A stretch of 64,000 bases of DNA from a virus: the IMG/VR virus record IMGVR_UViG_3300013111_000141, positions 32,761 through 96,760 of that record, one strand, 5' to 3'. Position numbers and translations under genes: made by a program. Position 1 is the first letter of the stretch. Each line of letters starts with the position of its first letter. Shown here piece by piece: positions 43,811 to 49,657 of the stretch. The notes beneath the pieces are model-generated. The model was not told where the DNA came from. It saw only the letters and a list, made by a program, of their open reading frames with translations, and ran no database searches.

Positions 43811-43839
43811 AGTATAACACATAATTACATAATTGTCAA
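43811..43839 (-). promoter_or_regulatory. Host-type promoter before the clamp/replication genes
   Basis: TTGACA (43839-43834), 17-nt spacer, TATACT (43816-43811), minus strand. It lies in the short gap between gene 46 and the basic protein gene. Confidence 0.85.
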
Positions 43840-45555: not shown

Positions 45556-46599
45556 CTACATCTCTCTCAGAACATCCATATATACATCATTCAATATAAC
45601 CTTCAATCTAGATTTATCTACATTAACATCATATCCATCTATATATTTTGATAATAATGATATAGTATCATCTTCTAATGATAATACATTTTCATTTAAT
45701 CTATCTTCAATTTCAATATCATCTATAATATCAACATCGGCTACATTATTTTTATACAACATATCAATAAATAAATCAAACTTATATATATCCAACTTTT
45801 CACGAACAATAACCTTAACAAATTTACCAGTATATTTAAGATAATCAACAGTCATATCATCATAATATTCAATCTTCTCAAACATGGTATAAGTATTCTG
45901 TATAAATTCTAACTCACGTGTCTCTGTATCAAATATATGGAATCCTCTTTTATCTTTATAATCCGACCAAGTTAACTCATAAGGATTACCTAGATATGTA
46001 ACATTTCCATCTGTAGATTTATGATGAAAATGTCCGCTATATACAACATCAAATTTATTAAATTTAGATTTATCAACACCATCAATACATTTAATACCAC
46101 CATTCATCAAAAACCCAGATATCTCTAAATGCCCCATTAAAATATCAGCATTAGTATCAGATATATGACTATCCACTTCATTATAATTATCATCATTTAT
46201 CCACGGACACATACATATATCAACCCCATCAAACTCAACAGTTTCAATAGAAGAATAAATTTTAGGTGAGTGTACATTATTACTATCTATCAAAGAATCC
46301 ATTGCATTAACTTTATTAGAATTCTTAAAATAAGTATCATGATTACCTATAATAATATGCATATCAATTTCATTATCATAAATCTTTTTAAGAAACCCAT
46401 TCTTAAATTTATGCAATATATTAAAATTTATAAATTTCCTACGATCTACTACATCACCCAAATGAATAACCGTATTAATATGTCTATCCTTTAATTCTTT
46501 AAAAAATATATTATCATAAAATTTCATCATATAATCATAAAATAATAAAGAATCGTTCCTGGCTCCCCAATGTGTATCAGTTATCAATGCTATTTTCAT
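45556..46599 (-). CDS. 47: Recombination endonuclease subunit (T4 gp47, SbcD/Mre11-like)
   Basis: Metal-dependent nuclease. The phosphoesterase motifs are DTHWGAR, GDVVDRR, GNHDTYF and GHFHHKS. Start ATG 46599 fits the family N-terminus (MKIALITDTHWG), rather than an upstream GTG. Works with gp46 to make 3' tails for UvsX. Confidence 0.95.
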   Translation of the reverse strand: MKIALITDTHWGARNDSLLFYDYMMKFYDNIFFKELKDRHINTVIHLGDVVDRRKFINFNILHKFKNGFLKKIYDNEIDMHIIIGNHDTYFKNSNKVNAMDSLIDSNNVHSPKIYSSIETVEFDGVDICMCPWINDDNYNEVDSHISDTNADILMGHLEISGFLMNGGIKCIDGVDKSKFNKFDVVYSGHFHHKSTDGNVTYLGNPYELTWSDYKDKRGFHIFDTETRELEFIQNTYTMFEKIEYYDDMTVDYLKYTGKFVKVIVREKLDIYKFDLFIDMLYKNNVADVDIIDDIEIEDRLNENVLSLEDDTISLLSKYIDGYDVNVDKSRLKVILNDVYMDVLREM

Positions 46600-47281
46600 T
46601 ATGTTTCTCACTTTTCTTAAGTTTTACAGGTTTAACACTGTTACGTGATATACGCTTATCTTCCTGAAATTTCTCAAATTCATGTAAGAATTTATCAATA
46701 TTACTTCTATTATCCCTAATATAATCTAAATAAGAATCCTTAACGCTAGTAACGTCATTATCATTCATACCATCAGATTCTAATGCATTAGAACTATATA
46801 TCGATTTATATTTGATATATAATTGTTTCTTCTCTTTCTGAATTCTTCTAATAAATGCAAAATATATTATCTGAGTGAAATATGAAAACGGATTATCTGA
46901 CTTGTCAGGATTAAAATTATTAATATATAATAAACAATTCTCAATACCATCACTAACCATATCATCTCTATAAGTATAATTTATAAAATTAGGTCTGTAC
47001 GATAAACCCTCGGATATTTTCATTATACATTCACATATATATGATGATACTTTAGGCGAAACTCTATATAAATGATAACTCTGTCGGGGTATTGGTAAAA
47101 TAAGATTTTCTAAAATATATATATTAATGTCTATATCGATAATATACCATGAGTAACGATTACCAACAGTATCTGAATAAGACTTATAATTAACATATGA
47201 TGTCCTATATATTATCATCTGTTTTAAAAACTCAGAATTATCAACATAATGTTGGGTTTTTTTAATATACCCTTTCTTCAT
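46577..47281 (-). CDS. 55: Late-transcription sigma factor (T4 gp55)
   Basis: Directs host RNA polymerase to TATAAATA late promoters. The conserved core is clear: ISEGLSYRPNFINYTYRDDMVSDGIENC, then NPFSYFTQIIYFAFIRRIQKEKKQ (sigma region 2 type). The N-terminal 90 residues look longer than in T4 (185 aa versus 234 here). A perfect promoter lies about 35-60 nt upstream. Seven late boxes in this window are its expected targets. Confidence 0.92.
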   Translation of the reverse strand: MKKGYIKKTQHYVDNSEFLKQMIIYRTSYVNYKSYSDTVGNRYSWYIIDIDINIYILENLILPIPRQSYHLYRVSPKVSSYICECIMKISEGLSYRPNFINYTYRDDMVSDGIENCLLYINNFNPDKSDNPFSYFTQIIYFAFIRRIQKEKKQLYIKYKSIYSSNALESDGMNDNDVTSVKDSYLDYIRDNRSNIDKFLHEFEKFQEDKRISRNSVKPVKLKKSEKHNENSIDN

Positions 47282-47315
47282 TTATATTCTCCATAATTAA
47301 ATACACATAATATGT

Positions 47316-47344
47316 ATTATACACTAATATTACCTATTTGTCAA
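47316..47344 (-). promoter_or_regulatory. Perfect consensus promoter before gene 55
   Basis: TTGACA (47344-47339), 17-nt spacer, TATAAT (47321-47316), minus strand. It points left into gene 55. Confidence 0.9.
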
Positions 47345-47349
47345 CCAGC

Positions 47350-47378
47350 TTGACAATTCATCAATTTTATGTTATTAT
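47350..47378 (+). promoter_or_regulatory. Divergent plus-strand promoter
   Basis: TTGACA (47350-47355), 17-nt spacer, TATTAT (47373-47378). It points right, opposite to all genes. Its -35 box and that of the gene 55 promoter form an inverted repeat (TTGTCAA-CCAGC-TTGACAA) spanning about 47338-47356. Confidence 0.6.
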
Positions 47379-47400
47379 GGTTCTGTTGGGGGTTAAAGTT

Positions 47401-47718
47401 TTAATTAATATAGTATTTTCCAATTGGTTTAAAATCTATTAGATCATCCATAGTATTTTCAGTCACAATTGTCGATGTGAATTTATTATATATCATCATT
47501 ACTTCATTTGTTGGATTGTTAATTGTTATTATTTTATCATATGATAAAAATGATGTAATGTCATCTGTAAATATATTATCTTCCATAATATATATGTTGT
47601 TTTCTTTATATGATAATTTTAATATATTTGTAATATTAACACCACCATTATCCTCATCATATTCTAAGTCACCTATGATAAATTCATTTGTAATTAATTT
47701 AATAACATATATTGTCAT
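47401..47718 (-). CDS. LSm-like small barrel protein B
   Basis: 105 residues. IKLITNEFIIGDLEYDEDNGGVNITNILKL followed by IITINNPTNEVMMIYNKFTST recalls the opening and middle of the protein at 40222-40557. This suggests two members of a small Sm-like family. It overlaps uvsW by ATGA. An antisense frame on the plus strand (47477-47737) is hydrophobic and looks like a shadow. Confidence 0.5.
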   Translation of the reverse strand: MTIYVIKLITNEFIIGDLEYDEDNGGVNITNILKLSYKENNIYIMEDNIFTDDITSFLSYDKIITINNPTNEVMMIYNKFTSTIVTENTMDDLIDFKPIGKYYIN

Positions 47719-49214
47719 TCTATATTCATATTATTAATTTTAAAGTTAAATTTCTCTTCATTATATATATTTAATCTTTCATAAAAATGTTTACATACAA
47801 AGTTTACATATTTCTTATATCTTAAATCATCAACAATATCATATAAAATTGATATATTATTATTATCACTTTTACGTAATGCACGCCCAATTGACTGTAA
47901 ACTTCTAATACGACTTTTCGTTGGAGATGCAAATATAATATTGTGTAGATTTTTTATATTGATACCCGTAGAATAAGTTCCATATGATGCTATTATTATA
48001 GATTCAGTATCATTATTCTCAACCTTTAATCTTATTTCTTCTCTAATATCAGCTGATACTTGTCCAGAAATAAAATATATAGACTTATTTTTAATATTAT
48101 GTTTTATTAATTTATGTAATGGTATGCCATGTTTTTCTACATAATTATATAATATTAAAGTATTACCATTTAAGGATTGTGCTAAGTTACTTATTATTAT
48201 ATTCCTTCGTTTATTAGATATTATCCAATCCAGTTCTTCATGATATTTAAGTTTTCTTACTTCTTTACATTGAGATTCTTTATATTTTAATACAATACAT
48301 TGTATTTTAAAATCAGATAATGTGTTCGAATCTATTAACTTTTTTGTTGTTGTTATTTGTTTTATGTCACCAAATAATCCATTTAATACTAATTTATGTG
48401 TGTGTGTACCATCTAATGTGCCGGTTGTACCAAACCTATATTTACAATGAACTAAATTATTCATTATTTTTATAAGAGAGTTCGATTTAAAAGAATGACA
48501 TTCATCACCAATAACTAAACCAAATTGATCATAATATTCTCGTTTAAGTTTATATATCGACTGCCAAGTTGATATAATTACACATTTATCAGTATCTTTA
48601 GACTGCCCTTGATAGATTTTATGACACGACTTTTCAACGTTGAATCCATAATCTTTAAAGTCACCATACATTTGAGACACTAATGATGTGGTGGGCACAA
48701 TTATAAGAACTTTCTTATCGTTTAAATCTGGATGTAACAAGAAAAATCTAATAATAGAGTATATTATCAACGATTTACCGGAAGCAGTAGGAGACAACAA
48801 CACGGCACGACTGTTGTTAATCGCGTGCATAATGGCATCAAGCTGGTAGTCTCGGTAGACAATATCTTTACCCTTAGACTTTGGAGAAATATAACGAGAT
48901 AATTGACCCATGTCTGATTTGTTGAACTCTGTATTAGGGTCGGGAGTCTCAGTATCAACAACCCCATATCCGTTGATGTTGCAGAATTCTATTACTTTAT
49001 TTTTTAATCCTGTATATATTTTTCTGTCAACGGGATTAAATAATCTTATATTACCATCCCATATTTTCTTTTTATATGTGGGCATGAATTCTGCACCAGG
49101 AACTTTAAATGTAAAATAATCAACTAATTCTTTGAGTATATACATTTCCGGAGAATCAATTTGCAGATAAGACTCATCCAGTTTATGAATTATAATATGA
49201 TTATTATCCGTCAA
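47715..49214 (-). CDS. uvsW: UvsW DNA/RNA helicase
   Basis: SF2 helicase that unwinds R-loops and branched DNA and shuts off origin-dependent replication. The Q-type YRDYQLDAI, Walker A SPTASGKSLI, DEAH-variant VIGDECHSF, FGTTGTLDG and motif VI QSIGRALRK are all visible. An N-terminal domain of about 110 residues (FKVPGAEFMPTYKKKIWDG) is typical of UvsW. At 499 aa it is full length. Confidence 0.95.
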   Translation of the reverse strand: MTDNNHIIIHKLDESYLQIDSPEMYILKELVDYFTFKVPGAEFMPTYKKKIWDGNIRLFNPVDRKIYTGLKNKVIEFCNINGYGVVDTETPDPNTEFNKSDMGQLSRYISPKSKGKDIVYRDYQLDAIMHAINNSRAVLLSPTASGKSLIIYSIIRFFLLHPDLNDKKVLIIVPTTSLVSQMYGDFKDYGFNVEKSCHKIYQGQSKDTDKCVIISTWQSIYKLKREYYDQFGLVIGDECHSFKSNSLIKIMNNLVHCKYRFGTTGTLDGTHTHKLVLNGLFGDIKQITTTKKLIDSNTLSDFKIQCIVLKYKESQCKEVRKLKYHEELDWIISNKRRNIIISNLAQSLNGNTLILYNYVEKHGIPLHKLIKHNIKNKSIYFISGQVSADIREEIRLKVENNDTESIIIASYGTYSTGINIKNLHNIIFASPTKSRIRSLQSIGRALRKSDNNNISILYDIVDDLRYKKYVNFVCKHFYERLNIYNEEKFNFKINNMNIE

Positions 49215-49657
49215 GAAGCTTCCATGAATCGTTTAAAATCAATTAAATTCTTAACAGACCATCGTTTGTCACCCAATAAATCTAATGTTTTATCTATTAA
49301 GTATAATGTCTGTTTTGTCATTTCATATTTTAATTTATATTCACTTATATATTTATCACAATCTATCCATGACATTAATTCAGATTTAGATATTTTATTA
49401 CCATGTATTTCCCAACCTAAATCATTTATTTCTTTATCAGATAATTTACCATAATAATACAAAGTTCTTAATGCTGTTATTTTTTTATATTCTATAGATA
49501 TAGTTAATAACTTAGACTTATATATTTGTTGATATTCTAGCCATTTCCCAATCATTAATTGTGTATTAACTATTTCACCATTTTGATCACCAATAGTTAA
49601 TATATCAATTTCTAAATCGGATTTAGATTCTTTTATTAATGTTTCTAATGTAATCAT
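49211..49657 (-). CDS. uvsY: UvsY recombination mediator
   Basis: Loads UvsX onto ssDNA coated by gp32. At 148 aa it is close to T4 UvsY (137). The alignable features are an initial LE-L-x-ES-SDLEID, KWLEYQQIYKSKL-x6-YKKITALRTLYYYG and a C-terminal helix with SVKNLIDFKRFMEA. Overlaps uvsW by ATGA, the same linkage as in T4-like phages. Confidence 0.85.
   Translation of the reverse strand: MITLETLIKESKSDLEIDILTIGDQNGEIVNTQLMIGKWLEYQQIYKSKLLTISIEYKKITALRTLYYYGKLSDKEINDLGWEIHGNKISKSELMSWIDCDKYISEYKLKYEMTKQTLYLIDKTLDLLGDKRWSVKNLIDFKRFMEAS

Follow-up and report, generated by a model that had tools for sequence, protein, structure and literature searches.

Marine T4-like phages rank with the most abundant viruses. 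T4 has transcription-primed (R-loop) replication origins, and the locus described here resembles them in having a predicted promoter-driven RNA near uvsY and uvsW. It differs from the T4 origins in its sigma70 consensus, in place of a T4 middle promoter, in its antisense orientation and in that an origin role found no support here. A review (PMC2984593) mentions a single predicted theta origin for cyanophage Syn9, and describes cyanomyoviruses as being without alt, mod, motA and asiA, by which T4 manages early and middle transcription; this absence raises the question of how these phages time infection.

Two kinds of described element come close to the present one. Warman/Grainger reported bidirectional promoters of bacteria that are built around a common symmetrical -10 element (PMC12825309, PMC10268837). 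As in those promoters, one region here would engage sigma70 polymerase both ways, and one binding can exclude the other. The Warman/Grainger promoters share the -10, with starts on either side or within, whereas in the present pair the -10 elements are separate and the -35 region is the part that is shared, interleaved or phased at integer helix turns. The other is CfrI, an antisense RNA of cyanophage S-PM2 psbA that was shown experimentally; it is about 225 nt long and located at psbA and a homing-endonuclease gene (PMC2984593, PMC5931967). The RNA considered here would likewise be an antisense RNA in a marine T4-like phage, but it is predicted only and belongs to the uvsW / Sm-like / gene 55 locus. 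In the literature we found no paper describing this divergent element upstream of gene 55.

The promoter pair upstream of gene 55

The window, that is the whole stretch of 64,000 nucleotides analysed, covers bases 32761-96760 of a 96,760-base IMG/VR record. The source is a T4-like marine phage; among named phages, Mosig, Melnitz and P-SSM4 (Kyanoviridae) come closest to it in this region. The large genes here (46, 47, 55, the gene in the Sm-like position, uvsW, uvsY and gp23) are all leftward. The features around the promoter pair are as follows.

46577..47281, minus strand: gene 55, late sigma factor, 234 aa (phrog_234, E 3.5e-50; tblastn to annotated gp55)
47316..47344, minus strand: leftward promoter TTGACA-17-TATAAT, 12/12, upstream of gene 55 (promoter scan; predicted start about 47308-47311)
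47338..47356, no strand: the two -35 boxes as a palindrome, TTGTCAA-CCAGC-TTGACAA (hexamer centres 11 bp, or one helix turn, apart)
47350..47378, plus strand: rightward promoter TTGACA-17-TATTAT, 11/12, with a TGn extended -10, opposing all genes (promoter scan)
47383..47394, plus strand: CTGTTGGGGGTT, predicted rightward start and conserved first-transcribed bases
47401..47718, minus strand: Sm-like / 'methylamine utilization' position gene, 105 aa (phrog_527, E 1.4e-4)
47715..49214, minus strand: uvsW helicase, second gene under the predicted rightward transcript (UvsW_N PF21241, E 1e-12)
49211..49657, minus strand: uvsY (PF11056, E 2e-11)

The preliminary description had proposed two divergent promoters with 17-nt spacers, one of them driving gene 55 and the other firing against all genes and antisense to uvsW. 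The promoter scan found both promoters, and the second, directed against all genes, would also be antisense to the Sm-like gene. Both -35 boxes lie inside the 119-bp gap upstream of gene 55, with 5 nt between them. The -35 and -10 elements are opposed and the starts point apart, as in a divergent (back-to-back) sigma70 promoter pair. The -10 elements are separate, and a shared -10 of the Warman type was not found at this site. The predicted rightward start is G47385 in TGT, the 7th base past the -10. The two predicted starts are separated by 76 bp in the window; in relatives the distance is mostly about 54-128 bp. Across the whole 64 kb, three 12/12 sigma70 matches were observed vs 0.4 expected, and no other intergenic match of at least 11/12 in the entire 96.8-kb record opposes its neighbouring gene as the rightward promoter does. 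In this AT-rich DNA, chance produces many palindromes of such a size: arms of 7 bp with a loop of 0-8 nt occur at 173 places in the window, so the palindrome alone is not unusual. It arises because two -35 boxes face each other, as a by-product and not as an element of its own; the site is non-random because of the two promoters and their conservation.

On one side of the pair lie late genes (uvsW, capsid), on the other early genes (55, 47, 46). The gene in the Sm-like position is the first gene under the predicted rightward transcript, and an Sm-like gene was found at the same position beside the element in about 242 of about 260 relatives. The P-SSM4 homologue matches PF16243 Sm_like (E 8e-44); the 105-aa gene of the window phage (47401-47718) is strongly diverged and gave no match to Pfam Sm_like. 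The product of gene 55 is 234 aa long in the window vs about 158-188 aa in relatives. Other strong leftward sigma70 promoters, at window positions 43839, 23702, 12768 and others (minus strand), have a TG-extended -10 and a TTGACAATTA-like -35, and are probably the early promoters of the phage. In MZ577095 (Melnitz-1), three 12/12 sigma70 promoters lie within about 150 bp at 71657-71808 (minus strand), all opposing the adjoining genes.

Conservation and helical phase of the two promoters

Relatives were collected by seven scans of viral contigs. The main set consisted of 123 non-redundant gaps upstream of gp55 from marine T4-like phages, with a threshold of at least 10/12 and with dinucleotide shuffles as control. 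The reverse (rightward) sigma70 promoter was present in 91% of these gaps vs 6% in shuffles, and the forward (leftward) promoter in 89% vs 5%, the reverse one being equally strong. The held-out set gave 101/114 for the reverse and 99/114 for the forward promoter. Each promoter also had a start signature, with G at +1 (the 7th base past the -10) in 74% and T at -1 in 77% for the reverse, and A at +1, at the same position, in 75% for the forward. Other same-strand gaps of the same loci, used as controls, contained a reverse promoter in 6 of 42 cases, and these six look like the gp55 element split by a short ORF.

Close relatives of the window phage had both promoters unchanged, and S-PM2 and ACG-2014d had the one-turn geometry of the window; in S-PM2 the rightward promoter upstream of gene 55 reads TTGACA-17-TACAAT and is followed by a TGT. 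The -35 boxes were interleaved in S-RIM2, and in Bellamy one -35 was shared by both promoters. The forward side was weak in ACG-2014f. Sinorhizobium phage phiM12 had a 12/12 reverse promoter and the start-site palindrome, together with a weak forward promoter and a spacing out of phase. Among the isolates checked, the pair was absent from a Tequatrovirus, from Vibrio phage Va3 and from Stenotrophomonas phage Ps15.

The preliminary description had looked to conservation of the palindrome among relatives. The relatives kept the two promoters and their helical phase, and the palindrome was not a conserved element: in some relatives one TTGTCAAG is shared, in others the boxes are interleaved, and in others again they are separated by tens of bp. 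The spacing, counted in bases from one -35 box to the other at their 5' edges, was between -16 and +57 for most relatives. It fell into classes of -16, -7, about 5, 14, about 25, about 35, about 45 and about 54, which correspond, centre to centre, to -1, 0, 1 (the window), 2, 3, 4, 5 and 6 helix turns. In the class of 0 turns a single TTGTCAAG is the -35 for both directions.

The best period of the spacing was 10.5 bp (R=0.73, n=190), and jitter of up to 8 bp gave a maximum of 0.29. Control distances (leader lengths, gap lengths, promoter-to-gene) gave R of 0.07-0.20, one of them slightly above its own jitter maximum, and shuffled gaps gave R of 0.02-0.19. An algorithmic artefact as the source of the 10.5-bp period was rejected by the shuffled and reversed gaps and by the control distances. 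In a held-out test with the prediction fixed beforehand, 87 gaps gave V=0.74 (z about 9.8), again with a best period of 10.5. Because relatives share ancestry the gap counts are not fully independent, and the tree count and the cluster-level test are the safest; with 19 clusters at 70% gp55 identity V was 0.82. On a gp55 tree of 183 tips, 88 spacing changes were counted, about 73 of them of at least 3 bp. They were mostly of 8-12 bp or near multiples of this, and none of those listed was of 4-7 bp. The mean cosine on the tree was 0.54 vs a null maximum of 0.28, and 155 of 183 spacings lay within 2 bp of an integer turn vs 87 expected. In every bootstrap the -35 boxes held the phase more tightly than the -10 boxes did; a handful of gaps were out of phase.

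As judged by comparison of these sequences, selection keeps the two -35 boxes integer turns apart, which would put them on the same side of the helix. That the phase is held across about 180 divergent relatives suggests that the promoters work as one unit, and argues against a chance palindrome.

Possible functions of the promoter pair

We consider that the element is a composite, coupled divergent promoter of the sigma70 type, with both arms on the same DNA face, at the late/early boundary, and would give this reading a probability of about 0.6. The leftward arm would produce the 55-47-46 transcript and the rightward arm a predicted non-coding RNA antisense to the Sm-like gene and uvsW. With both boxes on the same face, two polymerases, or a polymerase and a shared factor, may compete or touch, and rightward firing may tune the firing of gene 55. 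Early in infection it may also oppose transcription of the Sm-like gene and uvsW. Binding or initiation itself may count, rather than the RNA product. The predicted rightward RNA itself seems of little importance, because there is no constraint in the overlapped gene, no terminator and no ORF: synonymous constraint was not found at the 3' end of the Sm-like gene, and the gaps of the relatives had neither a conserved ORF in the rightward RNA nor an excess of terminators or ORFs. A hidden sRNA or ORF was rejected on these grounds, and the same absences weigh against a defined antisense RNA product. Rfam gave no covariance-model match at the rightward transcript in the window or in relatives.

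A control element at the gene for the late sigma factor, conserved across families and carrying a signature of helical phasing, is a concrete and testable device. The geometry of the window exists in identical form in the cultured phage S-PM2. The element also offers a natural test of communication between divergent promoters via a common DNA face.

Same-face polymerases, or a polymerase and a factor, at the opposed promoters might compete or touch as a phase-locked two-polymerase switch, the balance between the antisense and the gene 55 transcript might set the early-to-late switch of marine T4-like phages, and the spacing would evolve by whole turns only; we are more inclined to doubt this scheme than to accept it. 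The overlapping spacing classes cannot seat two polymerases, so contact between polymerases is not the sole reason for the phase. As the phase is kept in these classes, the idea of a third protein bound to that face has to be taken seriously as a rival. TTGTCAA and TTGACAA would then be the half-sites, on one face, at which a dimeric regulator from the phage or its host binds to control both promoters, and the phase would serve this regulator and not the polymerases. The repetition of TTGTCAA/TTGACAA in some relatives is consistent with such an operator, as are the phase being tightest at the -35 boxes, its persistence even where two polymerases cannot bind together, and a perfect 17-bp inverted repeat over the boxes in a sister group (L008/L009). 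However, a spacing of -1 to +6 turns is unlike that of a fixed dimer site, conservation outside the -35 hexamers is modest (C before, A after), and inverted repeats with arms of at least 10 bp are rare, occurring in 7 of 100 gaps. The preliminary description had suggested the palindrome as an operator; an inverted repeat at a fixed spacing was not found among the relatives, and because the box spacing varies from -16 to +57, a fixed-spacing operator does not fit. We regard the regulator as an unlikely explanation of the element.

Still less probable is that the rightward promoter merely silences the Sm-like gene and uvsW early, or blocks late polymerases entering early genes, with the phase as a secondary matter. 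Pure antisense or interference of this kind agrees with the Sm-like gene downstream (about 242 of about 260 relatives) and with the site at the late/early gene border, but it leaves the helical phase unexplained, and the antisense target region had no constraint. We give equally little credence to a replication origin, at which the rightward RNA would stay as an R-loop, prime the leading strand as at T4 origins and later be removed by UvsW. The conserved strong promoter without coding product or terminator, aimed into uvsW/uvsY, could be so interpreted. So could the GC skew at third codon positions (coding strand), which has a sharp step from 0.65 to 0.27 at window position about 46555 (record 79315), at the early/late border; the step lies less than 1 kb from the site in this record, 1.3 kb in Melnitz and 3.7 kb in Mosig. 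However, the skew also flips at other borders of early and late blocks and at an early-type module inside the Melnitz late genes, and the similar steps in Mosig and Melnitz follow early vs late gene class. Since gene class explains the skew, the step was rejected as evidence for an origin. Nor would an R-loop primer explain why the helical phase with the gene 55 promoter is kept. The origin-type element of the preliminary description thus gained no support here, and we hold an origin function of the site to be possible though improbable.

Start-site palindromes and inverted repeats

The reverse start of many relatives lies at the centre of a small palindrome with covarying arms (GGACT-ATGT-AGTCC, CCCT-ATGT-AGGG). 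Stems of at least 4 bp were found in 33 of 110 gaps, vs a mean of 7.6 and a maximum of 15 when arms were swapped between phages (partner-shuffled). Judged by this covariation, the start-site hairpin is real in many relatives and lost in the group of the window phage, in which the palindrome is degraded and the CTGTTGGGG half alone is left.

The sister group L008/L009 has kept both promoters, with 11 extra nt between the -35 boxes, a gain that speaks for the coupled reading. Its perfect 17-bp inverted repeat upstream of gene 55, ATTGGTGTATTGTCAAG...CTTGACAATACACCAAT, corresponds to 7 bp in the window and gives the impression that one promoter spacer had been copied onto the other, possibly by a template switch. 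Elsewhere in the window, a permuted (two-piece) tmRNA was identified at 1472-1920 on the minus strand (Rfam RF04321, 89.9 bits), and an annotated tmRNA is present also in Mosig and Melnitz. A GGGGGAATTCCCCC palindrome occurs at window position 1750, within the permuted tmRNA.
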